DNA of 64,000 bases from Piscinibacter gummiphilus. GTDB lineage: Bacteria > Pseudomonadota > Gammaproteobacteria > Burkholderiales > Burkholderiaceae_C. Location of the stretch: the NCBI RefSeq assembly GCF_032681285.1, contig NZ_CP136336.1, positions 2,777,001 to 2,841,000 on the forward strand, written 5' to 3'. The position numbers and the translations under genes are program-made. The notes under the pieces are model-generated. The model was not told the DNA's origin, searched no databases, and saw only the letters and a program-made list of their open reading frames with translations. Positions 10,372 to 44,600 of this stretch are shown piece after piece. The first letter of the stretch is position 1. Every line of letters starts with the position of its first letter.

Positions 10372-11565
10372 TCAGCCCGCCGGCGGCGACATAGAGGCTT
10401 CCGGCTCCCAGTTGACTCGGTGACCGGCGTTTGTTGCGTCATGTCGCGCGTCATCTTCCGAATGCACGTAGATGCTCGTTGTGGCCAGGTTGGCGTGCCC
10501 GAGGTTGTCGCGCACCGCCTTCAAGTCGACCGAGTCGCTCTGGTGGCTGCCAGCCGTGTGGCGCAGCCAGTGCGTGGAGGCGCGCTCGATGTGCGCGGCG
10601 GCGGCTTCATGCTCCGGTCCGCGAACCCGCAGGCGGGTGGCGGTCTGGCGTACAACGTCCTTGACGATCTCGTGCACGGCGCTGCGTGCCAATGCCTTTG
10701 GCTCGCCGATAAGGGAGCGCAACAACGGAGAGTCGTCGCCGGCCGTCGGTAGATCTGAGAGCCCGCAGCTGCGGCGGTAGCGAATCAGTTCAGCCATCAG
10801 TTCGTCGGTGGCAGGCACCAGCCGCGTCTTGCCGCCTTTTCCGGTCACCTCGAGCCACCAGCGTTGCCGGCCATCGGGGCTGCGCCGGCTGAAGAAGCCA
10901 ATCATCGTGGTGAGGCAGGCCTCGGAGACCCGCAGCCCACCGATGTACAGAAGCGAGAACAGCCAGCGCGTGCGGGCGGCACGCGCGGCGTCGCGCTCTG
11001 AATCGGTGGGCATGCCACTGATGGTGGTCTTGACCTCATGCCAGTGCTCGTGCGGCAGGAAGCGGCTCATGCGGGCGGCGCGGGGCGCAGCCTTGCGACG
11101 GCTGAGTGCCAAAGGGTTACCAGCGAGATAGCCGGCCTCGACGAGCCAGTTGAAAAGGCCGTTGAGGATCGAAAGCGCTTGGCGCTGCGATCCTGGGCTC
11201 AGCGGCCCGGCGAACGGCCGCCACAAGGGCGATGACCTCGGCTGGCGAGCTCCGGCAGCCATCACCCAACGCTCAGCCGGCTGGGGGTTGGCCAGAAAGC
11301 GCTGGTACACGAGCAGATCTTCGTGACTGAGATCTGACAGCGCCCGCCCGTGCTGGACCACGCACCAAAGCAACAAGCGTTCGGACTCTTTGCGGTAGTT
11401 CGCCAGCGTTGCCGGTGAGTCGGCGAAACGCGCCAGCCAACTTAGGACCGCCGAGCGATCGTCGGCCGCAGCGATTTGGCTTCTACCTCGTGCGCGATTG
11501 GCGCCGCTGGCCCCCGAGAGGGTGCAAGGTACTTGGAGACTGTCCAAGGTGACGAGGTCAGACAC
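10372..11565 (-). CDS. Tyrosine recombinase (TnpS-like)
   Basis: The 397-residue integrase-family protein has a SAM-like N-terminal domain (about residues 40-170) and a catalytic domain with the full set of residues: Arg in GGLRVSE, Lys in GKGGK, HWLRHTAGS, GHAN and the nucleophile in SIYVHSEDD. It is divergent from a KfrA-like coiled-coil gene, with palindromes between them. This layout is that of tnpS/tnpT in Tn4651-type transposons, where they resolve cointegrates. No Tn3-type transposase is in the window, so this may be a remnant or an independent module. It shares the unusual segment WRPF-x-G-x-LS with two other recombinase-like proteins in the window. Confidence 0.88.
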   Translation of the reverse strand: MSDLVTLDSLQVPCTLSGASGANRARGRSQIAAADDRSAVLSWLARFADSPATLANYRKESERLLLWCVVQHGRALSDLSHEDLLVYQRFLANPQPAERWVMAAGARQPRSSPLWRPFAGPLSPGSQRQALSILNGLFNWLVEAGYLAGNPLALSRRKAAPRAARMSRFLPHEHWHEVKTTISGMPTDSERDAARAARTRWLFSLLYIGGLRVSEACLTTMIGFFSRRSPDGRQRWWLEVTGKGGKTRLVPATDELMAELIRYRRSCGLSDLPTAGDDSPLLRSLIGEPKALARSAVHEIVKDVVRQTATRLRVRGPEHEAAAAHIERASTHWLRHTAGSHQSDSVDLKAVRDNLGHANLATTSIYVHSEDDARHDATNAGHRVNWEPEASMSPPAG

Positions 11566-11596
11566 GAGCGGCGTTTGGAAGCGGCGGCGTAGACAT

Positions 11597-11670
11597 TATG
11601 GACATTAGAGTACTTATGTCCATAGATTCGCCGGAAGTGTTAGATAGTCAACGTAATACGTCGTACTATC
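11597..11670. promoter_or_regulatory. Palindromes between recombinase and KfrA-like gene (operator or recombination core)
   Basis: TATGGACAT (11597-11605) and ATGTCCATA (11616-11624) form a perfect nine-base inverted repeat with a ten-base spacer. A second dyad, GATAGT (11643-11648) / ACTATC (11665-11670), flanks ACGTAATACGT. Both lie in the 110-base gap between divergent genes, where a recombinase core site and the binding site of a KfrA-like protein are expected. Confidence 0.65.
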
Positions 11671-11675
11671 AACCA

Positions 11676-12695
11676 ATGAGCACCGAGAACGAGATCCTGG
11701 CCGAAGTCGAGTCGCTGAAGGCGCGTTTCAGCGAAACGAAATCGCTCTACCGCGAGGTCTGTGCGCTGCTGTTCTTCCGGTACGGCATCACGCCCACGAC
11801 CAATAAGCTCTACCAGTACGTGCGCAAGGGCACGATGAGCACCCCGGCGGAAGCGCTGAGCAAGTTCTGGGATGAGCTTCGCCGCAAGGCGCGAGTGGAG
11901 ATCGACCATCCCGATCTGCCCGAGGAGCTCAAGGCGACGGCCGCCGAGGCGATCGCCGGCATCTGGCACCACGCCATCGCGACCGCCCGAGGCGAACTGG
12001 AAGTCCTTCGGATCGAAGCTCGCGCGGAACTGGACGAGGCGAAGCGAGAACTTCAGGAGGCCAACGCGGCGGTCGAAGAGGAGCGGGCACGAAACGAGGA
12101 ACTTGCATCTTCCATGCGTACCGCCAACGAGACGGCGCAATCGGCACGCACCGAGCTTGAGGCCGAGCGCCGTGCACACACGGGAACCGCGGCACGGCTG
12201 CAGGAGGTCCAAGCCCAGCTCGGCCAAGCCCGTGAGCAGCAGCAGCGCCTTCAGGACGGCTTCAGCGCGGAGTTGGCTAAGGTGCGCGACGCTGTGACCC
12301 AGGCCGACCAGAGGGCTGCGGCGGCCGAGCGCCGCGCTCTGATGGAAGTGGAACAGGAGCGACAGGCGCGTGCCAAAGCCGACAAGCTAGCAGAGGCATT
12401 GCGCGGCCAAGTGGCGATGCTGGAAGCACAGGAGCGCCGCGAGGGTCTGGCACACGCTGAGGCCGTGGCCCGCCTCCAAGCGCAGGTCGACTCGCTCAGT
12501 TCAGCGGCCCAGCACCAGGGCGCGACGAACGAATCGTTGGAAATCCAAGTCGCGCAGTTGCGTGACCAGCTCCAGGCGAGCCAGCAGGAGACAACCCGGT
12601 ACCGAGCCGAAGCCGAGACCGTTCAGGCGCTACTGAACCGGCTTACGCCAAGTTCGGCCCCCAAGGCGCCACGTCAGAAGCGGACGACGCCGTAG
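11676..12695 (+). CDS. KfrA-like coiled-coil DNA-binding protein (TnpT-like)
   Basis: The 339-residue protein has an N-terminal KfrA-type DNA-binding domain (about residues 1-95; GITPTTNKLYQYVRKGTMST) followed by a long Glu/Arg/Ala-rich coiled coil to near the C-terminus. KfrA proteins bind palindromes in their own promoter; TnpT, the accessory factor of TnpS recombinase, has the same build. I chose the ATG at 11676 (MSTENEILAE), because the longer frame would start inside the palindrome. Divergent pairing with a tyrosine recombinase supports a role in site-specific recombination or segregation. Confidence 0.82.
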   Translation: MSTENEILAEVESLKARFSETKSLYREVCALLFFRYGITPTTNKLYQYVRKGTMSTPAEALSKFWDELRRKARVEIDHPDLPEELKATAAEAIAGIWHHAIATARGELEVLRIEARAELDEAKRELQEANAAVEEERARNEELASSMRTANETAQSARTELEAERRAHTGTAARLQEVQAQLGQAREQQQRLQDGFSAELAKVRDAVTQADQRAAAAERRALMEVEQERQARAKADKLAEALRGQVAMLEAQERREGLAHAEAVARLQAQVDSLSSAAQHQGATNESLEIQVAQLRDQLQASQQETTRYRAEAETVQALLNRLTPSSAPKAPRQKRTTP

Positions 12696-12818: not shown

Positions 12819-13658
12819 TCAGCTTCCGACCTCACCCTCTGGCTTCTTGGACTTCGTGGACGTGCGCTTGCGCGCCGAGGTGGTCTTGGCCGCGGTACCG
12901 GCGCCGGGTTCCTTCGGCCCTCCCTGTTGCTTCAAGAGGACCTCTGTCGACAAAATGAGTTGGCGCCCGTAGGTTCTGGCAGCGTCCCAGACCGCATCTT
13001 GACGGACGGCCAATAGCATGTAGGCAGCGTGACCTGCCGCGACGATCAACACCACGATGATGCGTTTGCCTTCTGCGGATCGCAGATCCCAGGCCGAGTA
13101 CCAAAGCATCGCGGTGCAGATGACCACCACGCCGAGGTTCAACAGAAGTGCCAGCCATTTGACGCCGAGCAGATTGCGGCGGAAGCCGTAGGTCACGTTC
13201 TCGCCGAACAGCAGCGCAAATTTCTTCGTGTCGCGGGTTTGCTCACGTAGCCAGACGCCGCATTGGTCATAGAACGAATCAGCTGCACCAACGTCCGCTT
13301 GCTCCGCTTCAAGGCCGGGAACGGGCTTGCCAAGTTTGGCGGCCAAAAAAGTCCGATAACGTTCCTTGGACCCTTGGTCGATCGTCGGGTCGCTGTACCG
13401 GAACATGGTGACTGAAGGCATGCCACCTTTCGAGGCGTACAACTTGCGCTCCACAGCCCGTCCTCGTTCTCTTGCGAAGTCCGCGATGGCGAAGAGAAGG
13501 ACCACCAACGCCAAAGTTGCAACCGTGTTGGACAGCTCGAGTGACTTCCAGGAAATCAGCATTGCGATGGCGGCCAGGGCGGGCGAGGCGGCAATGCTGG
13601 CGGGAAAAAGCCTGGCGCGCATTGAGTAGGCGTCGAAGACCTTGAGCATGCTGATCAT
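12819..13658 (-). CDS. Predicted four-helix membrane protein linked to MBL hydrolase
   Basis: The 279-residue protein has two pairs of hydrophobic segments (about residues 17-62 and 165-225) separated by a soluble region with FRYSDPTIDQGSKERYRTFL and DTKKFALLFGENVTYGFRRN. The tail is Lys/Ser/Thr-rich. Its start overlaps the MBL gene stop by four bases (ATGA), so the pair is one operon. Four-helix membrane proteins with such hairpins (S-4TM and SLATT types) are proposed pore-forming effectors of bacterial conflict systems. I infer that role from architecture only; no confident family match is made. Confidence 0.7.
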   Translation of the reverse strand: MISMLKVFDAYSMRARLFPASIAASPALAAIAMLISWKSLELSNTVATLALVVLLFAIADFARERGRAVERKLYASKGGMPSVTMFRYSDPTIDQGSKERYRTFLAAKLGKPVPGLEAEQADVGAADSFYDQCGVWLREQTRDTKKFALLFGENVTYGFRRNLLGVKWLALLLNLGVVVICTAMLWYSAWDLRSAEGKRIIVVLIVAAGHAAYMLLAVRQDAVWDAARTYGRQLILSTEVLLKQQGGPKEPGAGTAAKTTSARKRTSTKSKKPEGEVGS

Positions 13659-14725
13659 GGCGCTTCGACCTTCACCGCGAACTCTTCCGGCACCGCTGGC
13701 CTCATCTGGTCGTGTCCCTTGCCCTTGTAGTGAGAGATCCAGCCGTTCTTGTTGGTGTACACCTTGTAGCCCCGACGAATAAAGGCGTTTTTCACTTGTC
13801 CGCGCGGATAGTCGTGTTTGCCAGCTCCGATGGAACAGAAGGAGACGCCAACGACGGTGCCTTCAGCCTTGCGGGGTCCGAGCCATCGATCGAGCACCTC
13901 GGGGGTGACGTTGTGTCGGCTCCCGTGATGGGGCATCTGCACAAAGCGCGGACGATTCAGGCCGAGTTCGGCTGCGTAGTCCGCCGCTTCTTCCAGACCC
14001 TGCGGGCCGACATCAGCGGTTAGCAGCACGTGATCGTCTGGCGCAAGCTCAGCGTATTGCACGACGCAGCTTTCATTTGACGCCGACGTCGGTGGCTGCG
14101 GGTTACTGGAAAGTGTCTCGACGCTCCAGTTCTCTTCCAACCATTTCTTGGCGGCCTCGACGAGCGCTTTGAAAATGCCTGAACGCTGTATGCCGGCATC
14201 CTCAGTCCGGTACGAGGTGGGTGTTTTCTCGAAATCTGGAATCAGTTCTACGTAGCGCTTGCGCGACGGCGCAAGGACCCTGAACTTGCCGATCTGAGCT
14301 CCCTGGAAAACCTCGTGGATCTGCGCTCCCTTCTTGAGTGCGATTTCTTCCAACTCGACAAGGTAGGGATGCCGCTCCTTAATGTCCGCAATCAATCCCT
14401 CCAGGGTGAAGTTCCCATGGAAGTGGTGGAGGACCTCGTGCGCGTACAGCCAAGGACGGTTCATCCACAGGTGGTTGACCCTAAAGTGTTCCAGCACGCC
14501 CACCAGCCCGCAGGCGTGGTCGTTGTCTGCATGCGAAAGCACCATGTGGTCGATGAAGTAGCCCGGATAGTGCTTCTCGATGTGCTCGATGATGGTGTCG
14601 GCTGTGTCAATTCGGCCGCCGTCGACGACATGAAGCGTATTTCGAGTGGTTTCATCGCCATACCGGACGACGATGGCGTCGCCATAACTCTCCCCGACCG
14701 GCAGGAAGTCGACTTCGTAAGACAT
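13655..14725 (-). CDS. ComEC-like MBL-fold hydrolase
   Basis: The 356-residue protein is a metallo-beta-lactamase-fold enzyme of the ComEC/Rec2 C-terminal type. It shows VVDGGR near residue 33, the zinc motif SHADNDHACG (about 65), LLTADVG and the later MPHHGSRHN. There is no membrane or competence domain, so this is a stand-alone soluble hydrolase. I chose MSYEVDFLPVGESYGD at 14725. It may act on nucleic acid or a nucleotide. Its tight coupling to a downstream four-helix membrane protein suggests a sensor or enzyme plus effector unit. The substrate is unknown. Confidence 0.82.
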   Translation of the reverse strand: MSYEVDFLPVGESYGDAIVVRYGDETTRNTLHVVDGGRIDTADTIIEHIEKHYPGYFIDHMVLSHADNDHACGLVGVLEHFRVNHLWMNRPWLYAHEVLHHFHGNFTLEGLIADIKERHPYLVELEEIALKKGAQIHEVFQGAQIGKFRVLAPSRKRYVELIPDFEKTPTSYRTEDAGIQRSGIFKALVEAAKKWLEENWSVETLSSNPQPPTSASNESCVVQYAELAPDDHVLLTADVGPQGLEEAADYAAELGLNRPRFVQMPHHGSRHNVTPEVLDRWLGPRKAEGTVVGVSFCSIGAGKHDYPRGQVKNAFIRRGYKVYTNKNGWISHYKGKGHDQMRPAVPEEFAVKVEAP

Positions 14726-14956
14726 GTGCGCTCCCAGATGAACGCTCACGGCCTCGAGGGCTGAGAGCGGCGGCACCAAATGTTTGTGGTGGAATGTGCC
14801 GCGTAGGTAATAAGTCAGGAGCTTATGGCGCAGATGCGGTTCGCAACGTCGGAGCCTTCTCAAACTTCGGGCATCTACTACCCCTCGCTCAAGGGAAGGC
14901 CTCGGTGCCACCGGGCATCCGAGTACACTTGTTGCACCGGTCACACAGGAGAAAGC

Positions 14957-15197: not shown

Positions 15198-16576
15198 GTG
15201 GTGCCAGAAGAGGGCCGAAACTCTACCGGGGGGCGAACGCCGTTCAGACAGGACTTCGGACGGCTGCTGCACTCACCCTGCTTTCGTCGCCTTCAAGGAA
15301 AGACTCAGCTCTTCCCAACCCACGAGTCGGACTTTTTCCGCAACCGACTCACCCACTCGTTGGAGGTGGCGCAGGTGGCCAAGGCCATCGCATTGCACAT
15401 CAACGCGACGGTCGCTGAGTTTGAAGACGATCCCATTGACACCGACTTGGTCGAAATGGCGGCCCTCGCCCACGACCTCGGCCACCCCCGTTCGGGCACA
15501 ACGGTGAGGAGGCCCTGGACGATTGCATGAAGCCTTGCGGAGGTTTCGAAGGGAACGCACAGACACTTCGGCTGCTGGCGCGAATCGAGAAGAAGACCTT
15601 CCGCGGGAGCGATCCTCACGACAGTCAGGGCACGTATTGCGGCATCGGTCAGGATGGCACCGACTACCGCGCTGGGCTGAACCTGACGTTCAGAAGCCTG
15701 GCCGCGGTCCTGAAGTACGACAGGCCGATTCCGTCATGGCGACAGACGGGCGACAAGCTGGCGAAGGGCTACTACCAGTCTGAAGCGCCGCTGGTCGACG
15801 AAATCAAGCGAATGGTCGGCGCGCCGCCCGCAGAGGTGCCGTTCAAGACCATCGAGTGCCAGATCATGGACTTGGCCGACGACATCGCCTATTCGACGTA
15901 CGACCTCGAGGACGCCATGAAAGGCGGCTTCACACACCCGCTGGCGGTGAGAGCCAGTCTGTCGAGCAACCCGGAACTCGTGGGGCGCGTCTATGCCAAG
16001 GTGGTCGACGCCGTTCCGGACACCACGGAGGCCGAGGTGTTCGCCACGCTTCAGCATCTCTTCGATCTGAGCGGAAACGGTGACGGAACACCATCCGGCG
16101 ATCCCGCGGCCGACGCGCTCTACGCGTATCACCAGTCCACGTTGCTGGCGTCACAAGGCAAGCTGCGCGTCGGATTCACATCGCATCTGGTGGGAGACTT
16201 CATCAACGGCATTCGCGTTCGACCACGCGCTGGCCGCGCCAGGAAGTTCTCAGCGGTGGAGCTCGAGCGGGGGATCTTGTTGCAGATCGAATCCTTGAAG
16301 CACCTCAACTACCAGACGATGATCATGTCGCCGCGCTTGAAGGTGGTGGAGAACCGCGGCTACGACCTGGTGTGCGAGATCTTCAACAGCCTCAGCAAGC
16401 CGGATGGGCATCACCTCCTTCCGGAGGACTACCGGCTCATGTACCACCGAGCCGCCAACGACGCGGATCGGCAGCGGTTGTTGTGCGACTTCATCGCGGG
16501 CATGACCGATCGATACGCCGCCGAGTTTCACAGCCGAATCTCCGGCACCGGAGCCTCGATCTTCAAACCGCTTTGA
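15198..16576 (+). pseudogene. dGTP triphosphohydrolase-like HD protein, split by a one-base frameshift
   Basis: The two halves together form a Dgt-family protein of about 459 residues. The first half has [20 protein letters not shown] and the HD motifs LTHSLEVAQ and AHDLGHP; the second continues GGFEGNAQTLRLL through DLADDIAYSTYDLED. The frame breaks in a run of five C residues at 15485-15489. Six would restore [20 protein letters not shown], exactly the family sequence. Dgt enzymes cut dGTP to deoxyguanosine and triphosphate, and relatives starve phages of dNTPs. The break is a real mutation, phase variation in the C tract, or a sequencing error. The start is a GTG, as an in-frame stop lies at 15174. 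Confidence 0.85.
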
Positions 16577-16614
16577 GTGGCGCCGCACCGGAGCCACTGG
16601 CGAACGAAGTTAGG

Positions 16615-16662
16615 CTATCGATAGGTATTTCCTAATTGACGCCATCGTCAGCTTTGACGATG
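16615..16662. promoter_or_regulatory. Palindromes upstream of the adenine methylase gene
   Basis: CTATCGATAG (16615-16624) is a perfect ten-base palindrome, and CATCGTCA (16643-16650) / TGACGATG (16655-16662) is a perfect eight-base stem ten bases before the methylase ATG. TTAGG (16610-16614) and CCTAA (16631-16635) flank the first. They could be operators or a translation-limiting hairpin. Confidence 0.5.
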
Positions 16663-16672
16663 CTGCCGGCGC

Positions 16673-17353
16673 ATGAGCTACCCCGGCGGCAAGGGCGGAC
16701 TGTTTCGCCAACTGATCAACCTCATTCCGGTGCACTCGACCTACATCGAGAGCCACCTGGGCCATGGGGCCGTTCTGCGGCACAAAGCGCCCGCGGCCCG
16801 AAGCTTTGGCGTGGAAGTGGACGCTGCAGTGATCGAGCGCTGGGCAGGGGCATCGCTCCCCGGCTTGGAGCTCATCCAGCAAGACGCCACCTGCTTCCTG
16901 AGGTCGTTCCCCTTTGTCGGCGACGAATTTGTCTACGCTGACCCGCCGTACCTCCCAGCCTCACGACGGCGCAGTCGCGTCTACCGCCACGAACTTGATG
17001 AGCGAGCCCACAGCGAACTGCTCGATGTGCTCGATGCCATCCCGGCCAAGGTCATGTTGTCGGGTTATGGCTCGCCGCTCTACGACCAACGTTTAGCCCA
17101 CTGGAAACGGATCGAGTTCGACGTCGGCAGCCATGGCCTGCGCCACCGCGAAGTGCTCTGGCTGAACTACGAACCGCCGGCCGTTCCCTGTGACTTGCGC
17201 TTCATCGGCTCGACGTTCCGAGAACGCCAGCGCATCCGGCGCAAGCAGGAGCGCATGCAGGCCAAGATCCGCGATTTGCCCGCCTCGGAGCGCGCGCTCT
17301 TGATGCAGTGGCTGTCCGCCACCTATGGCGCAGGCGAGGGCAGTGCTGCATGA
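16673..17353 (+). CDS. D12-class N6-adenine DNA methyltransferase
   Basis: The 226-residue protein carries MSYPGGKGGLF at the N-terminus (AdoMet-binding PGGK) and the catalytic ADPPYLP at about residue 90, as in Dam/M.DpnII-type adenine methylases. It is shorter than most family members (about 270-290 residues) and has a compact target-recognition region plus a basic C-terminal tail (FRERQRIRRKQERMQAK). No restriction enzyme gene is beside it. It overlaps the following glycosylase gene by four bases (ATGA). In this setting it may mark self DNA in a system handling base modification, which is inference. Confidence 0.85.
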   Translation: MSYPGGKGGLFRQLINLIPVHSTYIESHLGHGAVLRHKAPAARSFGVEVDAAVIERWAGASLPGLELIQQDATCFLRSFPFVGDEFVYADPPYLPASRRRSRVYRHELDERAHSELLDVLDAIPAKVMLSGYGSPLYDQRLAHWKRIEFDVGSHGLRHREVLWLNYEPPAVPCDLRFIGSTFRERQRIRRKQERMQAKIRDLPASERALLMQWLSATYGAGEGSAA

Positions 17354-18135
17354 ACGCCTCCGTTACCCGCTACCCGATCCTGCGGCAGCGCCAGATCTTC
17401 GAAATCGAGCTGCCATCACCGCAAATCGAAGTGCTGCCAGGGGTGCCTTGCGGTCGACCGGAGGAGTTCCTGTCGCCTGCCTACTGGGCCTATCAGGCCA
17501 GCGCGGCGGAAGAGTTGTGGGACGACGGGCACGGGCTGCAGGCCGACGCGTCGCTTTGGCAGCAGATTGCCTTCTGCCTGCTGGGAGGCCATGGCATCAC
17601 CTTCGAGATGAATCGAATGGCGTTCGAGCACCTGATTGCCAGTGGCGTTTTCGGCAGCGGGGAAGTTCGTGCAGAAGACATCGAGGCCCTGCTGCTCGAG
17701 CCGCTGCAGGTCGAAGGGAAGGCTCGTCGGTATCGGTTCCCGCGCGTCAAAGCCAGGTTCCTGGCCGACGCTTATCGACGGCTGAACTCCGTGGCCAGTC
17801 CGGCCGAGCCGCGCGAGCTGCGGGACTGGCTACTCGGCTTCAAAGGGATCGGCCCGAAGACCGCGTCCTGGATCGTTCGCAACCACCTGGGCAGCGACGA
17901 CGTCGCGATCCTCGACATCCATGTGCTGCGCGCGGGTCGGCTGATGGGGCTCTTCACGGCCGAAGACGATGTGGTGCGGCACTACGCATCGATGGAAAAC
18001 CGTTTCCTGCGGCTGGCCCGCGGCTTGGGCGTCAAGGCCTCGCAACTGGACATCGTGATGTGGCGCCAGATGCGGCGCTCGCCCACAGCCGTTCGAGCAG
18101 CATGCGAGCGGGCCGGGATCGCCTTCAACGACTAG
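17350..18135 (+). CDS. OGG1-like HhH-GPD DNA glycosylase
   Basis: The 261-residue protein has the helix-hairpin-helix GFKGIGPKTASW (about residues 162-173), with the catalytic lysine in GPKTAS, and the catalytic aspartate in ILDIHVLR (about 188). These define bifunctional 8-oxoguanine-type glycosylase/lyases. The N-terminal half (LPSPQIEVLPGVPCGRPEEF) is typical of the shorter bacterial OGG group. It would excise a damaged or modified purine from DNA. OGG-type genes are known ancillary parts of type IV CBASS loci, together with QueC. Here its 3' end overlaps the convergent QueC-like gene by 11 bases. Confidence 0.85.
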   Translation: MNASVTRYPILRQRQIFEIELPSPQIEVLPGVPCGRPEEFLSPAYWAYQASAAEELWDDGHGLQADASLWQQIAFCLLGGHGITFEMNRMAFEHLIASGVFGSGEVRAEDIEALLLEPLQVEGKARRYRFPRVKARFLADAYRRLNSVASPAEPRELRDWLLGFKGIGPKTASWIVRNHLGSDDVAILDIHVLRAGRLMGLFTAEDDVVRHYASMENRFLRLARGLGVKASQLDIVMWRQMRRSPTAVRAACERAGIAFND

Positions 18136-18730
18136 CCTGCAAGTCCATCAGGCCGAGCGCATTTAGGACGTCGAGGCGCTTGACGCAGCCTCGACAGGTG
18201 CCGCAGGCCAAGTGCGACACCTGGCAGGAATGGGACCACATCAAAATCTCGGGCGGCACGCCGGATGTTCTGACCAGTGCCTCCGTGCTCATGGCCTGCG
18301 CCGGCGCGGTGATGCGCGGTGCGTATTCCTGAGCGGCCACCAGCTGGTTGATCGACGCATAGAACGTTGGTGTCCCGTCGGCATGGAGCTCGTCGCCGGC
18401 CACGGTGCCAAGCATCAGTTCATCGGCTTGGCTGTTCACCAGGCGCATCAGCGCGAGGGTGATGAGCAACTGGTTGCGGAACGGCCACCACTCGGGCGAC
18501 GGGCCGTCCAGTACCGGCCGGTCATCGACTAGCGAACCCCGCCCCAAGGCGGAGCAGTCGACCGTGATGACTTCCTGCTGCATGCCGAGCGCCTTGCAGA
18601 CTTCAGCCGCCGCGGTCAGCTCGGCGCGCGCTGGACGTTGCCCATAGTCTATGGTCACGGCAATCTGAGGCCGCAGCCAGTAGGCGAGGGTGATCGAATC
18701 CAGGCCGCCCGAGAGCAGGATGGCTTTCAT
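18125..18730 (-). CDS. QueC-like 7-cyano-7-deazaguanine synthase homologue
   Basis: The 201-residue protein has the PP-loop SGGLDS at residues 7-12 and a C-terminal zinc cluster, HSCQVSHLACGTCRGC, as in QueC. QueC converts 7-carboxy-7-deazaguanine to preQ0. It lacks neighbours for the rest of queuosine synthesis (queD, queE, folE), so it is more likely a defence-type QueC paralogue, as used in Qat systems and type IV CBASS. Its start overlaps the upstream PfkB-NDT stop by four bases. It converges on the OGG-like gene. Confidence 0.85.
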   Translation of the reverse strand: MKAILLSGGLDSITLAYWLRPQIAVTIDYGQRPARAELTAAAEVCKALGMQQEVITVDCSALGRGSLVDDRPVLDGPSPEWWPFRNQLLITLALMRLVNSQADELMLGTVAGDELHADGTPTFYASINQLVAAQEYAPRITAPAQAMSTEALVRTSGVPPEILMWSHSCQVSHLACGTCRGCVKRLDVLNALGLMDLQASR

Positions 18731-19947
18731 GTGCAGGCGGTTCCATAGGCCGCCCAGGCGGTCATGTACACCGCCGTCGCAAAGTCGGCCGTGACCTCCG
18801 CGCCGGAGCCACCGAGCATGGTCAGGTCACCGTCGTGGCCCGAGCGTGCAAAGCACACGACGGGCTTGCCGCTGCGGGTGGCGTATCCGATCTCGAAGAG
18901 GGTCCCCGGGTCGAGGTCTTCCAGCATCGCCACCATCACGTCGGCCTCGTTGAGCCCCTTCAGGTCCAGCTCCACGATCTCCTCTTTCGACCGACCGATT
19001 CCGACCTCGTGAAATGGCGAAAACACATCAAGGCCCACGTGGCCGAGTTCCCGCCTGGCTTCTTCGATCAGCCAACGCTGTGCCATGGTAAAGAAGGGGC
19101 CTGCGAGGTAGACCCGCGGCCGTGGTGCTAGCGGACGTCGAAGCGTCACCGGCACGAGCGCGGCCGCTTCGGTGGCCATGATGTCCTGGGTCGGAAAGCT
19201 CATCGAGCTGCAATAGAGGGCCGTGGCCCGCGACGCGAAGTCCGCGGCTTCCGGTGCCGGTCGACCTTGGGCCATCCAGGCCTGAGCGAAGGCGGCGGTG
19301 AACACGTCGCCCGATCCGATGGGGAAGACGGACGCGGTGCGATAGCTGGGGATGACGTTCAAGTGGCCGTCGGACACGACCCAGGCGCCGGCGGCGCCCG
19401 CCTTCACCACGGCCACTTTGGCGACCTTGCCCAGGTGGACAGCGCAAGCCTCAGGTCCAAACTGCGCCGTCAGCTGTTCGGCCTCGCCCAGGTTGCACAC
19501 CACGGCCAACTCCTCGGCCCGAGATCCGTTGGCCGCGAACTGCGCCGGCGACACCGGGGTTTGCGGGTCGTACACGCACTGCCGGGCTTCCACGACGGCG
19601 TCACCCTCCAACATGCCGAAACGGATGACCTGGTCGCCCTTCACGTGGATGTGCCGGGTCGGATCTTCCAGGGGCTCGAAGGAGGGCACGTACTGCACCG
19701 GTGTGAGGGCGTGGAAATACTCGAACAACACTTCCGGTGCGCCTGTAGTGCAAAGCGCCTCGAAACCGAAGGCATCGGCCAGCGCCTTGCGACGGGAGGT
19801 GCTCGCCGCGTCCGCGAAGGTATGCAGGCGCGCTGGCACGCCCAGAGTTGCCAGGACGGCTGCAGCCCGGCCGCCGGACCCGAAGAACTGATGCCAGGCG
19901 GGATAGTGGCAAAGCTCTTCGTATGTTCCCCCAGCGACCTCGATCAC
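18727..19947 (-). CDS. PfkB-family kinase fused to nucleoside 2-deoxyribosyltransferase
   Basis: The 406-residue protein joins two enzymes. Residues 1 to about 265 form a PfkB/ribokinase fold with an N-terminal GSGGRAA and the anion-hole motif GSGDVFTAAFA near residue 210. Residues about 275-406 form a nucleoside deoxyribosyltransferase with VYLAGPFF, ELDLKGLNEADV and the catalytic-glutamate region GTLFEIGYA. The first could phosphorylate a nucleoside, the second exchange or remove its base. The GTG start at 19947 overlaps the upstream stop by four bases. The fusion suggests one route acting on a (deoxy)nucleoside, possibly a signal or modified nucleotide. Confidence 0.85.
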   Translation of the reverse strand: MIEVAGGTYEELCHYPAWHQFFGSGGRAAAVLATLGVPARLHTFADAASTSRRKALADAFGFEALCTTGAPEVLFEYFHALTPVQYVPSFEPLEDPTRHIHVKGDQVIRFGMLEGDAVVEARQCVYDPQTPVSPAQFAANGSRAEELAVVCNLGEAEQLTAQFGPEACAVHLGKVAKVAVVKAGAAGAWVVSDGHLNVIPSYRTASVFPIGSGDVFTAAFAQAWMAQGRPAPEAADFASRATALYCSSMSFPTQDIMATEAAALVPVTLRRPLAPRPRVYLAGPFFTMAQRWLIEEARRELGHVGLDVFSPFHEVGIGRSKEEIVELDLKGLNEADVMVAMLEDLDPGTLFEIGYATRSGKPVVCFARSGHDGDLTMLGGSGAEVTADFATAVYMTAWAAYGTACT

Positions 19948-20285
19948 GACGTCGGCTTTCCTGACTGCACCCAGATGACGCAGCGCGCACCGCTGATCTC
20001 GGTCACAACGCCGAAGAAGGGGTACCCCTTCTTCATGCAGTCGATGAGCTTGTCGAGGTCGTTTGCGAACAGGGTCCCAAGGAGCGCCCCGCGGAGCTTG
20101 ACCTCGACGATGTCACGATTCCCGTGGCTGACCAGTTCCAAGGTAACGACGGACTCTTCCTTCACGAAGGCCATCGCTCTGGGCTGTTGCGAGGCCAGCA
20201 AGCCGTCGATGTTGACCGCCTCGCAATTGTTGAACTGGTCAGCGTTGCCCCCGCCACCGGGCCGGCTACCCTTGTTTTTTCCCAT
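19944..20285 (-). CDS. Uncharacterised 113-residue protein, first gene of the PfkB-NDT/QueC operon
   Basis: The protein starts MGKNKGSRPGGGGNADQFNN and is followed by a compact alpha/beta region with VVTLELVSHGNRDIVEVKLRG (read in two parts) and CMKKGYPFFGVVTEISGARCVIWV. There is no membrane segment. The AAAGGGGAG ribosome site supports 20285 as the start. It is coupled to the PfkB-NDT gene by a four-base overlap. I do not recognise the family; its fixed position in the operon makes it a candidate regulator, sensor or immunity-type component of this unit. Confidence 0.7.
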   Translation of the reverse strand: MGKNKGSRPGGGGNADQFNNCEAVNIDGLLASQQPRAMAFVKEESVVTLELVSHGNRDIVEVKLRGALLGTLFANDLDKLIDCMKKGYPFFGVVTEISGARCVIWVQSGKPTS

Positions 20286-20678: not shown

Positions 20679-21839
20679 ATGGATGACGGAAGTACCGCAG
20701 TGACACAAGATTTTGACGAGATTTCATCAGACTTCGCCACATTGGCGCGCCTGGCATCTGCCCAGTCGTACGAAGACGTGCGCCTGTTGCTCGCTCGGTT
20801 GGTGCGCAAGTACCGAAGCCAGCATCCACAGCTCGCCGCACAACTCGACCAGAGCCTGAAAGCCACCCAAACGCGGGCGGCGGGCGCCTCGCCTTTGCGC
20901 CGTGAACTCACCGCTCCACCTGCGCATGCAGGAGACGCCCGACTTGAGCTGATCAAGGTCTTCGACGATCTCGGCGGCATGGAGCCGCCTCTTCTGCCGG
21001 CACAGCTGATGCAGCAGATCGAGGCCATCGTGCTGGAGCGCAAGCAACGCGATGCACTGCTCGCCCGGGGCATTTCGCCCACCCGATCCGCCATCCTCGT
21101 CGGGGAGCCCGGCTTGGGCAAGACACTCTCGGCGCGCTGGATCGCCCATCAGCTGAACAAGCCTCTTTGGGTGCTAGATCTCACCGCGGTCATGAGTAGC
21201 CTGCTGGGCAAGACCGGCAGCAATCTTCGCGCTGCACTGGACCACGCAAAAGCAAGCTCTGCTGTCCTGTTGTTGGACGAAGTCGACGCGATCGCTAAGC
21301 GACGCAGCGATGAATCCGACATCGGTGAACTCAAGCGCCTGGTCACCGTGATCCTGCAGGAGGTCGACCAATGGCCGGACACCGGCTTGCTCCTAGCTGC
21401 CACCAACCATCCCGAGCTGGTGGACCCGGCACTGTGGCGTCGCTTTGACGCCGTGTTGACCTTCACGGCACCGGAGGCGGCCACCACCGCCGTGGCGATT
21501 CGTCGGTACCTTGGCCAGGACCTACATGACCTCGAGTCCTGGGTGGAAACGCTTGCCGCCGGGTTGCAGGGCAAGTCCCTGTCGGACGTAGAGCGCACTG
21601 TTGCGTCCCTTCGACGCGCCCACGCGCTGAACCACACGCCACTCGAGGCCCTGGTACGCCAAGCAGTGGGCGAGGGCGCCGGCGAGCTCAGCAAAGCGCA
21701 GCGCCTCGAGCTCGCCGTGCAAATGGCCCGCACGGGGCAGCACACCCACCAGGAAATCAGCCGGCTGACCGGTGTGGCGCGCGACACGATTCGAAAGCAT
21801 GCCGGGCCGTCGCCGCGGCGGGGAAGGGGGATGAAATAA
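20679..21839 (+). CDS. ietA: AAA ATPase of an IetAS-type pair (IetA-like)
   Basis: The 386-residue protein has an N-terminal helical region, then an AAA core with Walker A GEPGLGKT (about residue 141), Walker B LLLDEVDAI (about 197), sensor-1 ATNHPE and an arginine-finger region DPALWRRFD. A C-terminal helix-turn-helix-like end (HQEISRLTGVARDTIRKH) suggests DNA binding. It abuts the subtilase gene directly. AAA ATPase plus S8 peptidase is the composition of the IetAS phage-defence system. The start is ATG 20679; a GTG at 20700 with GGAAG upstream is possible. A LexA box upstream suggests SOS control. Confidence 0.82.
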   Translation: MDDGSTAVTQDFDEISSDFATLARLASAQSYEDVRLLLARLVRKYRSQHPQLAAQLDQSLKATQTRAAGASPLRRELTAPPAHAGDARLELIKVFDDLGGMEPPLLPAQLMQQIEAIVLERKQRDALLARGISPTRSAILVGEPGLGKTLSARWIAHQLNKPLWVLDLTAVMSSLLGKTGSNLRAALDHAKASSAVLLLDEVDAIAKRRSDESDIGELKRLVTVILQEVDQWPDTGLLLAATNHPELVDPALWRRFDAVLTFTAPEAATTAVAIRRYLGQDLHDLESWVETLAAGLQGKSLSDVERTVASLRRAHALNHTPLEALVRQAVGEGAGELSKAQRLELAVQMARTGQHTHQEISRLTGVARDTIRKHAGPSPRRGRGMK

Positions 21840-24071
21840 ATGGCTACCCGCTACATCATCGCCAAAGGTGAGTTGCTGACCTATCCGATCGGAGCGCCAA
21901 AGAAGGAGCCGGGTGAGAAGAACCACCCGTACACGCTCGCACAGGCGAAGGCAGCGCTGTTGCCCCAGATCGATGAGGCGACGCATGAGTTCGATCGCTT
22001 GCCGCCGCAGGCATGCCCAGGCGACATCGCAGTGGCGTTGGTGACGTTGCACCCGGCCTACCTTGCCAAGTCATATTTCCCAAGGCAGTTGCTGCAAACG
22101 GCGGGGCTTGAGTCGCTCGGCAGTCGCAGCGAGCGCATCCGACCGCGCCGAGTCACGCGCGCCAATGCACCGCCCGAGGCCGATACCACGCAGCTGTTTG
22201 TGGCAGGGCGTCGCTCGGCCATGCGCGCGTTCCGTGATTTCGCCGCGCACTTGACGGAGGGTTCGCGCGAGGCGGCGGAGTTTGCGCAGATCGAAGATTT
22301 TCAGGCGCTCACAGCGGACAACCGCGTCCGAGGCGCGGCCGACCTTGAACGCATTCCGAGCCGTCAAGGCGTGTTCGAGGTCGGGCTGCACGTGCCGTCG
22401 GTGGCAACCACGGATCGACTGCGTGAGGTGTTTGCCGCGTTCGCCAAGACCTGTGGCTTCGAGCTCAACCCGCACTTCCGCTTCGACGCCGGCAGGCTGC
22501 TGTTCGTGCCGGTCGAAGGCGACGCTGATCGGCTGCAAGAGCTCGCGCAGTTCTCTCTGATGCGTGTGGTGCGCCCAATGCCCAAGCTGCGCGCGGCTCG
22601 ACCGATGCTGCGCACGAGCCCCGTGGCCGTACCGTTTCGGCTGCCCGAGGGCGATGTCCTCAGTCGCGAGCCACGGGTCGCCGTCTTGGATGGTGGGCTG
22701 CCGCAAACGCACATCCTCGACCGCTTCGTGCGGCGCTATTTCGAAGCCGACGAGGATGCTGATCCGGTCGACGAGTACCTGGCCCACGGCTTGGGCGTGA
22801 CGTCCGCCTTGCTGTTCGGGCCGATTCCACCCGGTGGCCAGGCACCCCGGCCCTTTGCCGCGGTCGACCACCACCGTGTGCTCGACTCGGTGTCGGACAC
22901 CGAGGACCCCTACGACCTGTACCGCACCCTCGGTCACATCGAAACCATCCTGATTTCGCGCACCTACCAGTTCGTCAACCTCAGCATGGGTCCTGACCTG
23001 TGCGTGGAAGATCACGAGGTGCACGCCTGGACGGCCGTGATCGACGAGATCTTGAGCGACGGCAACACGCTTCTGAGCGTGGCCGTGGGCAACAATGGCA
23101 CCGCCGATGCGGCGGCCAGGCTCAACCGCATCCAGGTGCCCGCCGACTCGGTGAATGCGCTCGCTGTCGGGGCTGCTGACCGCAGCAGCGCCGGCTGGGA
23201 ACGTGCCGACTACAGCGCCATTGGTCCGGGTCGCAGCCCGGGGCGACGCAAACCCGATGTCGTCGCGTTTGGGGGATCAGGGCACGAATACTTCCACGTG
23301 GTTGCCCCCGGAGCCCGCCCTGATTTGTCGGCGACGCTCGGCACGAGCTTCGCGGCGCCCCTGGCATTGCGAGCCGCCGTGGGCATCCGCGCAGTGCTCG
23401 GCAGTGACCTCTTTCCGCTGACGACGAAGGCGCTCCTGATCCACGGCTGCGAGGCGAGCGTTTTCGACGGGACCGAATCCGTCGGCTGGGGCAAAGTGCC
23501 CACCGACGTGATGGACCTGATCACAAGCGACGATGGCGCCGCCCGGATCATCTACCAAGGCGAGCTGCGCCCAGGAAAATTTCTTCGAATGCCGGTTCCG
23601 TTGCCTCTCGCGCCGCTGGCAGGAATGGTGACGCTCACCGCGACGTTCTGCTACGCCTGCCCCGTGGACCCGCAAGATGCCAGTGCGTACACGAAAGCCG
23701 GACTGGCAATCACCTTCCGCCCGCATGCGGACAAGCGCAAGGACGGTGCGGCCCACGCCAACACCTACAGCTTCTTCCCGTCCAACGAGTGGCGGACCGA
23801 GGCGGAGCAGCGGGCCGACCTGAACAAATGGGAAACCGTGCTTCACTCGTCCCACACATTCCGCGGCTCGAGCTTGAAGGGGTCGGTGTTCGACGTCCAC
23901 TACAACGCCAGAGACTCAGGCGCGCCTGCCACCGGCGCAGAACGCATTCCGTATGCGCTGGTGATCACCGTACATGCGCCTCGCCATCTCGACCTTCACC
24001 AGCAGATCCTCCAGGCCCATGCAGTGCTGGAAACGCTGCAACCGGCCGTCAATTTGCAACTCGACACCTGA
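21840..24071 (+). CDS. ietS: Subtilisin-like S8 peptidase (IetS-like)
   Basis: The 743-residue protein carries the S8 catalytic triad: Asp in VAVLDGGLP (about residue 282), His in AHGLGVTS (about 315) and Ser in LGTSFAAP (about 503). There is no signal peptide, so it acts inside the cell. The first 270 residues are a non-catalytic region and the C-terminal 200 resemble a beta-rich domain. It starts one codon after the ATPase stop. In IetAS systems the peptidase is thought to be switched on by phage or incompatible DNA; the target is unknown. Confidence 0.85.
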   Translation: MATRYIIAKGELLTYPIGAPKKEPGEKNHPYTLAQAKAALLPQIDEATHEFDRLPPQACPGDIAVALVTLHPAYLAKSYFPRQLLQTAGLESLGSRSERIRPRRVTRANAPPEADTTQLFVAGRRSAMRAFRDFAAHLTEGSREAAEFAQIEDFQALTADNRVRGAADLERIPSRQGVFEVGLHVPSVATTDRLREVFAAFAKTCGFELNPHFRFDAGRLLFVPVEGDADRLQELAQFSLMRVVRPMPKLRAARPMLRTSPVAVPFRLPEGDVLSREPRVAVLDGGLPQTHILDRFVRRYFEADEDADPVDEYLAHGLGVTSALLFGPIPPGGQAPRPFAAVDHHRVLDSVSDTEDPYDLYRTLGHIETILISRTYQFVNLSMGPDLCVEDHEVHAWTAVIDEILSDGNTLLSVAVGNNGTADAAARLNRIQVPADSVNALAVGAADRSSAGWERADYSAIGPGRSPGRRKPDVVAFGGSGHEYFHVVAPGARPDLSATLGTSFAAPLALRAAVGIRAVLGSDLFPLTTKALLIHGCEASVFDGTESVGWGKVPTDVMDLITSDDGAARIIYQGELRPGKFLRMPVPLPLAPLAGMVTLTATFCYACPVDPQDASAYTKAGLAITFRPHADKRKDGAAHANTYSFFPSNEWRTEAEQRADLNKWETVLHSSHTFRGSSLKGSVFDVHYNARDSGAPATGAERIPYALVITVHAPRHLDLHQQILQAHAVLETLQPAVNLQLDT

Positions 24072-24094
24072 GGTTGCCAAAAGCCAGCTCACAC

Positions 24095-25864
24095 ATGTTC
24101 GATGTTTCTGCTCTGACACCTGAAAGCATTTCAAGCCTGGACCTGGAGCGCCGTCTTGACGGTGTCGCGGCAAGGGAGTGCCATGCATACGCTATGGCGC
24201 TGACAAAGGCGCTGGACGAAGAGAACGATGAGGCGATCAAGTCCACGTTGCGCTTCGTGGTGCAAGTGCTGTCAATGGCGTTTCGGCCGTGGTCACCCAA
24301 TGAGCCCTTCGGCGCGCTGTGGGAAATCGACGACCATCGGTCAATGATCCCGACGGATCTCCCGAAGGAGTGGCTGAAGTCTCTGACGCCGTGGGCTCTT
24401 GCACTGAACGACGCCGAGCTGCGTAGCCGCTTCCTCGACGTGATCTGGCTCCAGGCGCGCGACTTCAAGGCCGCTCAAGCTGCAATCGGCGCCTACGTTG
24501 AAGCTGCAGGACAACTCGGCGACGCGGAGGTTTCCGACGTCCTGGTCGCGCAGCGGTACGAGCGCGCGCTCCGCCTGGCAACCAGCCTTGGGCGAGGAGC
24601 CCTCGCGGAACGCGCGCAGGTTCTTCAAGCCGTCGACGCACTGCTGCTCAGCCCCGTACCGCCACATCAGCATGTGCTCTGGAAGTTGGTGCCGTTTCTC
24701 TTGGACAGCGGGCATGGGGAACCTGCGAGCTACGCCGCCGTGGCCGAAGGACTTGCCGCCCGACACCACAAAGAGGGGAAGTTCTGGATCGCCAAAGACC
24801 TGCACGAGCTCGCCGCGCGTTGCTACCAGGCGGCGAACGACGAGGTCAACCGAGAGTCCCAAAATCGTCTGGCTGCCGAGTCGTTGGTCAGTGAAGCAGA
24901 GGCCGCGCATCAACAAGGCAGAGGCGCTGCCGCGGCAAGCTCGATCCTCTCGCAAGCCGTGAACATGCTGCGTCAGGCAGGAGGCGGAAGAGACCGGATC
25001 GATGCTCTTCATAGCCGAGTGCTTGAACTGCAGAAGTCGTCGGTGGACGAGCTTCAGGGGTTTCGGGTCGAGCAAGACGCTTCGCAGCATGTTCAACGAG
25101 CCCTCGCGGCGATCGATGGCAAACCGATGCGCGACGCCATCATCACATTCGCGTTGATGAGCAAGCCGCCTTTGGTAACCGACCTGATATCAGCGGTCCA
25201 CGAGAGGGCGAAAAAGGAAGTGCTGGGCTCGCTGGCGCCCATGGACATCATCAATGCCAGGGGTCAGGTCGTTGCGAAGCTACCCGCCCTCGAACCGGCA
25301 TCCACAAACATCGAAGACGCGGGCTTGAGGGGACGGGTCTTCAGGCTGGCTGGCGAGCGCAGGAGCATGCTGGTTCAGGTTGTGATCAATCCGGTTCGGC
25401 GCCGAGTCGTGGAGCTACATGCCCCGACCCCACAGGACCTCCTCGCTCTGGTTTCGGCAAGCCCCTGGGTCCCTTCCGATCACACGAGCACCGTCGTGCG
25501 CGCCTTGATCGCTGGCTTCTATCTGGACATGGAAGTGGCCGCGACGCTCGTACCGATCCAGATAGAAGCTTTGGTGCGGCACGTTGTGAAGGCCCAAGGC
25601 GGTGCAACGACCATGCTGGACGCCGAACGCATTCAGCAGGAGAAGCCCTTGGGTCCACTTTTGGAAATGCCTGAGGCCGTCAAAGCGTTCGGTCAAGCCG
25701 GAATACTGGAGATGCAAGACCTACTGACGGAGGCGATAGGAAGCAACCTGCGCAACGAGGCCTCGCACGGCCTTTTGACTGACGAAGGGTGCTATTCGAC
25801 CCAGCCTCTCTATGCGTGGTGGCTGTTGCTGCGCTATGCGTTGTTGCCCGGGCTTTTGCCTTGA
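24095..25864 (+). CDS. DUF4209-like protein with C-terminal HEPN-type RNxxxH motif
   Basis: The 589-residue, mainly alpha-helical protein ends in a region with NLRNEASHGLL at about residue 550, followed by aromatic helices. The RNxxxH signature matches the catalytic motif of HEPN ribonucleases and the end of DUF4209 proteins. The middle part (residues 100-330) looks like helical repeats. The ATG at 24095 begins 23 bases after the subtilase stop on the same strand; a longer open frame upstream overlaps ietS and is rejected. It could be an extra effector of the ietAS locus or an independent defence gene. Confidence 0.65.
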   Translation: MFDVSALTPESISSLDLERRLDGVAARECHAYAMALTKALDEENDEAIKSTLRFVVQVLSMAFRPWSPNEPFGALWEIDDHRSMIPTDLPKEWLKSLTPWALALNDAELRSRFLDVIWLQARDFKAAQAAIGAYVEAAGQLGDAEVSDVLVAQRYERALRLATSLGRGALAERAQVLQAVDALLLSPVPPHQHVLWKLVPFLLDSGHGEPASYAAVAEGLAARHHKEGKFWIAKDLHELAARCYQAANDEVNRESQNRLAAESLVSEAEAAHQQGRGAAAASSILSQAVNMLRQAGGGRDRIDALHSRVLELQKSSVDELQGFRVEQDASQHVQRALAAIDGKPMRDAIITFALMSKPPLVTDLISAVHERAKKEVLGSLAPMDIINARGQVVAKLPALEPASTNIEDAGLRGRVFRLAGERRSMLVQVVINPVRRRVVELHAPTPQDLLALVSASPWVPSDHTSTVVRALIAGFYLDMEVAATLVPIQIEALVRHVVKAQGGATTMLDAERIQQEKPLGPLLEMPEAVKAFGQAGILEMQDLLTEAIGSNLRNEASHGLLTDEGCYSTQPLYAWWLLLRYALLPGLLP

Positions 25865-41997: not shown

Positions 41998-42353
41998 CCT
42001 CCGTTAGGCGCCCGCCCCGCCTCGAACGACAGACGCGTCCGACTGGTTACTGACTTTGCCGTTGAGTTTCTCGTGGCGCTTCGTTGGGCTCGCGCTTCCG
42101 ATACCCGCACTTTGCGATCTTGATTCACAAGTGCGAGATTGCCCGCGGTCAACGCATCGACGCCACGTCGAATCGCATATGGCTGCTGCTCAAGTCGTTC
42201 TTGCGGGTCGATTTAATGCCCTTAGACGGCGCCAGCATCGAAGACGTCTTCATTGCGCAAGAGCCCCGTTCCTCCTCAAAGTTATGCTTACGCCCAGACG
42301 CTAGCTCCCATGATGAAGGGCGAGCGCAATTGGATCGGAGGAGCGGACACATC
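41998..42353. other. Intergenic, possible upstream extension of the kinase gene
   Basis: The 356 bases hold no firm gene. A frame continuous with the kinase opens at 42084 (MGSRFRYPHFAILIH), but it has no ribosome site and the kinase-proximal part looks untranslated. I take it as leader DNA. Confidence 0.4.
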
Positions 42354-43667: not shown

Positions 43668-43907
43668 CAGCGGCACCATCTGTTTGCAGGCCAAGTGGCG
43701 GACCAGTTCCAGCTCGGTTGTTCCACGCGAGGCACCATTCTTCAGCGCTCGATGGACGAACACTCGGACATCAACTACATGGTGGTGTTCTCGTGCAGCC
43801 ACTTCGCTCAGAAAAGCTACCTCGTCCGACTGCGACATCATGTTCGACCAGATACCCTGCCCCACTGTGGTCCGGCTGCCGCTCCCGATGGGCATGGCGG
43901 CTGACAA
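43668..43907 (+). pseudogene. Remnant of a CD-NTase-like nucleotidyltransferase
   Basis: The frame immediately after the kinase stop reads QVADQFQLGCSTRGTI and then LQRSMDEHSDINYMVVF, followed by QKSYLVRLRHHV. This is the active-site region of CBASS-type nucleotidyltransferases, normally GS...RGT...DxDxMVVF; here one metal-binding Asp is Asn (DIN). About 70 residues remain; the later part seems frameshifted (CPTVVR in another frame) and the rest of the enzyme is absent. It is evidence for a lost cyclic-oligonucleotide signalling gene. Confidence 0.65.
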
Positions 43908-43925
43908 GCCAAGGGGCCCTGCGCC

Positions 43926-43965
43926 GGTTGACAAAATGTGAAAATTGCAGGAAAGTTGGTTGACA
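43926..43965 (+). promoter_or_regulatory. Direct repeat of GGTTGACA before the XRE-linked operon
   Basis: GGTTGACA occurs at 43926-43933 and 43958-43965, 32 bases apart (about three helical turns), just upstream of the gene at 43992. Both contain a consensus TTGACA -35 element, though no good -10 follows either. They may be tandem promoters or regulator sites. Confidence 0.45.
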
Positions 43966-43991
43966 GATTCGACTTTTTGCAAGGATCGCCA

Positions 43992-44594: not shown

Positions 44595-44600
44595 TTGGGC

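Follow-up and report, generated by a model that had tools for sequence, protein, structure and literature searches.

A report of 2025 described protein-nucleobase conjugation in type IV of the cyclic-oligonucleotide-based anti-phage signaling systems (CBASS), and in 2026 it was proposed for Qat (PMC11996544, PMC13279940). The QueC homolog Cap9, whose reaction was reported by Wassarman 2025 (PMC11996544), joins a 7-deazaguanine base to Gly-2 of the type IV CBASS CD-NTase (cGAS/DncV-like nucleotidyltransferase), which has an MGGS start; QatB, the partner of QatC, has an essential MGTS start for which a modification is proposed, and Qat defense is lost when QatB carries G2D (PMC13279940). Cluster 4 of the QueC family PF06508 was assigned to purine salvage in the cluster-4 passages of Libby 2026, which place a PfkB-type kinase fused to a nucleoside 2-deoxyribosyltransferase (NDT), here PfkB-NDT, in about 88% of cluster-4 operons (PMC13329287). 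The locus analyzed here is of the cluster 4 type and lies in a stretch of 64,000 nucleotides of Piscinibacter gummiphilus (assembly GCF_032681285.1, contig NZ_CP136336.1, positions 2,777,001 to 2,841,000 of the forward strand), the whole of which is called the window. Its core, a small tailed protein, a PfkB-NDT, a QueC-like ligase and usually an OGG-like glycosylase, is on balance probably an anti-phage or anti-mobile-element system that works by protein-nucleobase conjugation. The genes were mapped as follows (positions are those of the window).

15198-15530, + strand: dGTPase piece 1, HD domain (Pfam HD E 5e-10; match to a dGTPase hidden Markov model)
15527-16576, + strand: dGTPase piece 2 (PADLOC dGTPase E 3e-60, profile positions 126-380)
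16673-17353, + strand: D12-class DNA adenine methylase (Pfam PF02086 E 1e-6)
17350-18135, + strand: OGG-like helix-hairpin-helix (HhH) DNA glycosylase/AP (apurinic/apyrimidinic) lyase, 261 aa (Pfam PF22175 E 1e-13)
18125-18135, no strand: tail-to-tail overlap of the OGG and QueC genes, 11 bases (open reading frame coordinates)
18125-18730, - strand: QueC-like PP-loop ligase, 201 aa, PF06508 cluster 4 type (PF06508 E 3e-24; PADLOC QueC E 3e-12)
18727-19947, - strand: PfkB-type kinase fused to NDT, 406 aa (PF00294 E 3e-11, PF05014 E 5e-17)
19944-20285, - strand: small tailed protein, 113 aa, MGKNKGSRPGGGGN... (open reading frame and Shine-Dalgarno-like site)

The methylase, OGG, QueC, PfkB-NDT and small-protein genes of a first-pass annotation, made from the letters of the window, were confirmed, as was its 11-base overlap of the operon ends. 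Its dGTPase was not found as one open frame: the two pieces lie in different frames, both match dGTPase or HD profiles, and the frame change was placed by reading the sequence close to a run of five C at about 15486-15490, so that the gene is either broken (a pseudogene) or affected by an assembly error at that spot. Overlaps of 4 bases each join the methylase to OGG, the small protein to PfkB-NDT, and PfkB-NDT to QueC among the open reading frames (ORFs) of the window, and a Shine-Dalgarno-like site, AAAGGGGAG, precedes the ATG at 20285 of the small-protein gene. Among ten window proteins scanned with Pfam there was no cyclase and no SMODS or nucleotidyltransferase match, in agreement with the remark of the same annotation that no cyclase was visible.

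The module is real and widespread. Relatives matching PfkB-NDT over its full length turned up in 6 of 397 other genomes of the phylum and, within the order, in 1 of 398 others; at E 0.001, any match was obtained in 103 of 398 genomes of the phylum, the remainder being partial kinase or NDT matches. At a coverage of at least 80%, matches were present in 37 of 72,556 plasmid records. When 84,980 species, each represented by one genome, were scanned, 257 stretches coding for a PfkB-NDT relative were obtained, some of which may be NDT alone as the search patterns sit in the NDT half; the survey took the best 80 of the 257, those nearest to the window, and is thus biased towards close kin. The hosts, judged by record name, fall in several bacterial phyla, one cyanobacterium and haloarchaea, the phylum being assigned in some cases from the name. 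A phage origin was considered and rejected: a tblastn search of PfkB-NDT against 50,697 phage records matched 13 of them, each with less than 80% of the query covered.

Using our own profiles on 98 loci, a number that counts duplicates as well as the window and its own copy (L001), PfkB-NDT was found in 98, the small protein and QueC in 97 each, OGG in 91 and a SagB-like gene in 78; a methylase was found around PfkB-NDT in 42 and a dGTPase in 22. A second set of 108 loci contained 103 with a scorable small protein, which form 82 clusters (hereafter distinct loci); the five others were L048, with no start by the rule given below, and four loci of the TIR class described further on. OGG adjoins the operon of small protein, PfkB-NDT and QueC in 72 of the 82 distinct loci, either convergent downstream (46) or upstream on the same strand (26), and the linkage must be real since it is kept in two different layouts. 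The methylase lies near 36 distinct loci, every one with the convergent OGG layout, and the dGTPase near 18, at scattered positions and on either strand; both are accessories and not part of the core.

The small protein consists of a start motif, a Gly/Ser-rich stretch of variable length and a core of about 80 residues. Starts were picked by ribosome-site match and start codon only (any start codon, with ATG and longer matches preferred). M[SGT]G begins 71 of the 82 distinct relatives but 5 of 556 background ORFs taken from these loci, and for M[SGT]G[SGT] the counts are 65 and 0; the background ORFs were of at least 250 residues, with ATG and a Shine-Dalgarno match of at least 4, and included the long genes of the module itself, the start rule for the small proteins being the laxer of the two. 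Ser-2 is encoded by TCT (25), TCA (22), TCC (11), TCG (10) and AGY (2), and Gly-3 by all four Gly codons, so the amino acids themselves are the conserved feature. The window protein starts MGKNKGSRPGGGG and is of the Gly-2 type; a verrucomicrobial relative (L116) starts MGKNRH and has the MGKN start in common with it. The small protein is a putative partner with a start of Met and a small residue, and a Gly-rich tail whose flexibility is suggested by composition. Its core is possibly HIRAN-like, as class I cores (the window's class) matched HIRAN in hhalign at a probability of 83%, with 20 column-shuffled controls at 0.1-0.8%. Haloarchaeal members (L039, L130, L131) have two core copies and longer tails, that of L039 being very acidic, and the L130 protein starts MCGGG (Cys-2).

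The QueC-like family profile had Cap9 (9nto) as its best PDB match (E 1.2e-14, 57.5 bits, two stretches), with canonical QueC close behind (E 1e-13 and 1e-10, 54.5 bits). SGGxDS, RN and the Asp aligned with the YPDC Asp are kept in the family, and the counterpart of this base-binding Asp (D118) is present in 109 of 111 sequences. The window protein carries SGGLDS, YGQRPARAE and C-Q-x5-CxxCxGCxK (Gln for His), the motif signature of PF06508 cluster 4, with five residues counted before the E of the YGQ motif vs. six as printed by Libby; a GSG[DE]L-like loop is common to its relatives and Cap9 in the profile alignment. PfkB-NDT of the window carries GSGD and FEIGYA and matched sugar kinase/ribokinase and N-deoxyribosyltransferase profiles of the PDB. 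Of 114 sequences, 112 keep the PfkB GxGD motif and 107 the NDT Glu of FExGYA, with the TIR class among those that lack the latter. OGG matched N-glycosylase/DNA lyase in the PDB profiles (E 5e-22) and NF002305 at E 2e-18, below its cut-off, and its HhH Lys and Asp are conserved in 98 of 99. The conserved PfkB, NDT and OGG residues are presumably catalytic.

Two further classes carry the same kind of tail. In the TIR class (the rhizobial plasmids L132-L134, and L128), a divergent PfkB-NDT with a degenerate NDT half comes first and a protein containing TIR second, followed by OGG and QueC; the last gene encodes a ThsB-like TIR protein beginning MGGGSSG or MGGGGGG, with another ATG ahead of this start in L128. 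In the two loci scanned, the last protein matched ThsB_TIR and the second combined TIR with TGT (tRNA-guanine transglycosylase; L132 E 1e-9, above the cut-off; L133 E 6e-5, below it). The TGT part is homologous (BLASTP E 2e-15) to a TGT-like protein of L164, which itself had no Pfam match; L164 has a QueC and an annotated CBASS cyclase, by which it was classed as type IV CBASS-like, and its CD-NTase starts MGGSGGG. The TIR class thereby brings in a known type of immune domain. Two of its loci (L132:7246-10395 and L133:7195-10358), each with TIR-TGT, OGG, QueC and a Gly-tailed ThsB-like TIR protein, are candidates for a QueC-equipped, Thoeris-like arrangement. The third class was found at the following positions.

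L163:4661-7285: third-class locus
L165:3970-6951: third-class locus
L166:3277-6267: third-class locus

Its tailed protein starts MGSSGSG or MGSTGSG and has a core related to that of the window (hhalign 90%), and it also holds a divergent kinase-NDT of about 443 aa, QueC and a glycosylase-like protein read as HhH by motif, with no Pfam match. As the class I/III core, TIR and the CD-NTase are each tailed beside QueC, the tail follows QueC and not the domain behind it.

Compared with type IV CBASS, the module likewise has a QueC-family ligase beside a protein with a Gly-rich N-terminal tail, Cap9 leads the PDB matches of its ligase by a small margin over canonical QueC, and the TIR sister class has a homolog of the TGT-like protein (the Cap10 role). 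OGG can accompany type IV CBASS too, as the first-pass annotation had stated. It differs in that the ten scanned proteins of the window gave no CD-NTase or TGT-like Cap10, the tail is on another kind of protein, there is a PfkB-NDT instead of a TGT, and most relatives have a SagB-like oxidase. With qatABCD the module shares a ligase and a tailed partner with a Met-Gly/Ser start and a probably flexible N-terminus; in contrast, QatC is described as having large N- and C-terminal extensions and as carrying Thr where the base-binding Tyr/Asp would be, whereas the window ligase has only 201 aa and the module ligase keeps the YPDC-aligned Asp (PMC13279940). QatA ATPase and QatD TatD nuclease had no match among the same ten proteins. 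With cluster 4 it shares the QueC subfamily, by motifs, and the PfkB-NDT neighbor (with the 4-base overlap in the window). However, a term search of the main text of Libby 2026 gave no OGG, glycosylase, dGTPase, nitroreductase, SagB or TIR, and the cluster-4 passages name neither the tailed small protein nor a defense role (PMC13329287). The module is most likely known in kind and new in its substrate, its partners and possibly its chemistry.

From the computed gene conservation, layout, tail motif, enzyme families and key residues, we infer conjugation and protection, with the small protein as the putative substrate. Met-1 would be removed, as residue 2 is small. The QueC-like enzyme would then adenylate a carboxylated base, most likely 7-carboxy-7-deazaguanine, and join the activated base to the exposed N-terminus, as Cap9 does on the type IV CBASS CD-NTase. 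More tentatively, PfkB-NDT may act on the conjugated base, the NDT adding deoxyribose and the kinase phosphorylating it, or may instead read the conjugated base in the place that the TGT-like protein has in type IV CBASS; with similar reserve, the possibly HIRAN-like core and the OGG-like glycosylase might direct the action to DNA. Most Ser/Thr-2 members have a SagB/azoline-oxidase-like enzyme, which would modify the junction further, a step for which the Gly-2 copy of the window has no enzyme. If correct, protein-nucleobase conjugation would gain another widespread family, with three classes (that of the window, TIR, and divergent kinase-NDT), and a subfamily labeled purine salvage would gain a testable immune role with a likely substrate and a key residue named.

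The gene after QueC in most relatives is annotated as nitroreductase, dehydrogenase or hypothetical. It matched TIGR03605 (SagB family peptide dehydrogenase) at E 2e-14 (L033), 6e-10 and 5e-4, all below the curated cut-off, and its family profile had the azoline oxidases CyaGox (2e-14), SagB-type dehydrogenase (2e-14) and BmdC (5e-8) as top PDB matches; the idea of an oxazole had been noted before the TIGR03605 match appeared. Unlike the azoline oxidase systems, no cyclodehydratase was annotated among the neighbors in the plasmid loci examined, and the oxidase gene is absent from the window module. The SagB-like gene occurs in 63 of 73 Ser/Thr-2 systems (ten Ser-2 systems being without it) vs. 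0 of 8 Gly-2 or Cys-2 systems, a count that omits L072, whose contig ends, and uses six starts reassigned by hand (L130, L131, L034, L062, L105 and L082, the last with no clear ribosome site at any candidate start). On a tree the residue-2 class changes at least 3 times and SagB at least 7 times, giving 3 independent pairs on the whole tree and 1 on well-supported branches, too few for significance; with so few independent changes the association is only suggestive, and what it suggests is that an azole forms at the junction. A new protein modification, in which the N-terminus of a DNA-binding protein bears a deazaguanine-oxazole (or thiazole) hybrid, is possible but doubtful. In that case the QueC-like enzyme would join the carboxylated base to Ser/Thr/Cys-2 and would also have to supply the cyclodehydratase step, by its second half-reaction, which uses ATP to activate the amide oxygen, as in the nitrile route of QueC, and would here let the side chain attack to give an azoline. 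The SagB-like enzyme would oxidize this to an azole and PfkB-NDT would yield a protein-borne deoxynucleotide, while Gly-2 systems without SagB, such as the window, would stop at the amide. A connection may in this way exist between QueC chemistry and the formation of azoles in peptide natural products.

Other readings were weighed against conjugation. The tail could be a flexible linker, with QueC-like and PfkB-NDT enzymes making a free modified base or nucleoside, OGG acting on DNA that carries it and the small protein sensing DNA ends; PfkB-NDT and OGG are indeed nucleoside and DNA-base enzymes and the core may be HIRAN-like, but a mere linker need not conserve its first residues ahead of a stretch of variable length, the same kind of tail recurs on TIR and CD-NTase proteins beside QueC, and the QatB substitution (PMC13279940) points the same way, which makes this reading unlikely. 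Similarly, QueC chemistry on free bases, as the first-pass annotation had it, is less likely, since the tailed small protein makes protein conjugation the better reading. A metabolic operon for purine or deazapurine salvage, after the published view of cluster 4, would account for QueC and PfkB-NDT as nucleobase enzymes and for the frequency of PfkB-NDT in cluster-4 operons, and the Roseivivax locus L035 has a nearby VUT-family gene annotated 'queuosine salvage'. Yet the module is rare and patchy in the phylum and order genomes, found on plasmids and beside defense genes, and an AP-lyase-type glycosylase, an azoline-oxidase-like enzyme and the TIR class do not fit; we regard salvage as quite improbable.

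Every enzyme family is present in the window for the pathway first suggested, in which the dGTPase yields deoxyguanosine, the NDT swaps the base, PfkB phosphorylates and OGG excises modified bases. It is nevertheless very improbable and was rejected, the dGTPase being near so few of the distinct loci and frame-broken in the window; the pathway also leaves the tailed protein without a role, and the TIR class has a degenerate NDT half but keeps the other parts. That two unrelated operons are neighbors by chance would suit a defense island with several unrelated systems, which the window is, but the conserved OGG layouts contradict it and confirm that the operons occur together in other genomes; this idea was rejected as next to impossible.

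Several points weigh against conjugation. The published assignment of cluster 4 is to salvage, neither biochemistry nor a phage test of the system turned up in the literature searched, and OGG is absent at 10 of the 82 distinct loci. In the window, QueC has GRGSL in place of the GSG[DE]L-like loop and is without two near-invariant residues (H170 to Q, G136 to Y), and the tail, MGKNKG, differs from the commonest, MSGSG. The HIRAN match fell to 21% for third-class and 3% for archaeal small proteins, each alone; Pfam gave HIRAN for one archaeal member only (L039, E 0.011, below the cut-off), it was not among the families listed for 59 members, and the small-protein profile had no PDB match, leaving no usable Pfam family or PDB relative among those found. 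Canonical QueC exceeded the family cut-off in 43 of 50 host genomes, and in the seven without it QueE was over the cut-off in G805, likely in G791 and not settled for five; by the models, the genome of the window has no convincing QueE, though canonical QueC is present. 7-Carboxy-7-deazaguanine may thus be unavailable in some hosts. TGT was over the cut-off in 9 of 10 host genomes tried. Literature searches on QueC with SagB, HIRAN, or TIR, TGT and Thoeris together, and on PfkB, NDT and anti-phage or CBASS, queuosine and glycosylase, gave nothing beyond Libby 2026 and Gao 2026, most subscription papers being outside the coverage.

The module sits between a PDC-M48B candidate and IetAS, with PDC-S39, PD-T4-6 and RmrA matches further on.

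10372-12695: tyrosine integrase and KfrA-like protein, on one side of the island
13655-14944, - strand: metallo-beta-lactamase-fold protein, PDC-M48B defense candidate, outside the module (PADLOC E 1e-99)
20679-24071, + strand: IetA and IetS defense system, outside the module (PADLOC IetA E 4e-70, IetS E 3e-39)
23999-25864: PDC-S39 candidate, after IetAS
42084-45692: PD-T4-6-like kinase (E 3e-134) and RmrA-like protein (E 8e-154)

Ten hand-picked neighbor proteins of relatives gave 3 strong defense matches (GajA in L033, ThsB in L137 and HEC-05 in L039), 4 weak and 3 none. The module is thus in a defense island and a role in defense, proposed already in the first-pass annotation, is likely. 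Adenylate/guanylate cyclase domain proteins lie near two relatives (L039:1227-1775 and L040:10742-11938) and are not CD-NTases by annotation. The tyrosine integrase and KfrA-like gene hint at a mobile element. At 54580-61710, a minus-strand ORF of 2376 aa and repeated open frames of 212 aa suggest a long, internally repetitive protein.

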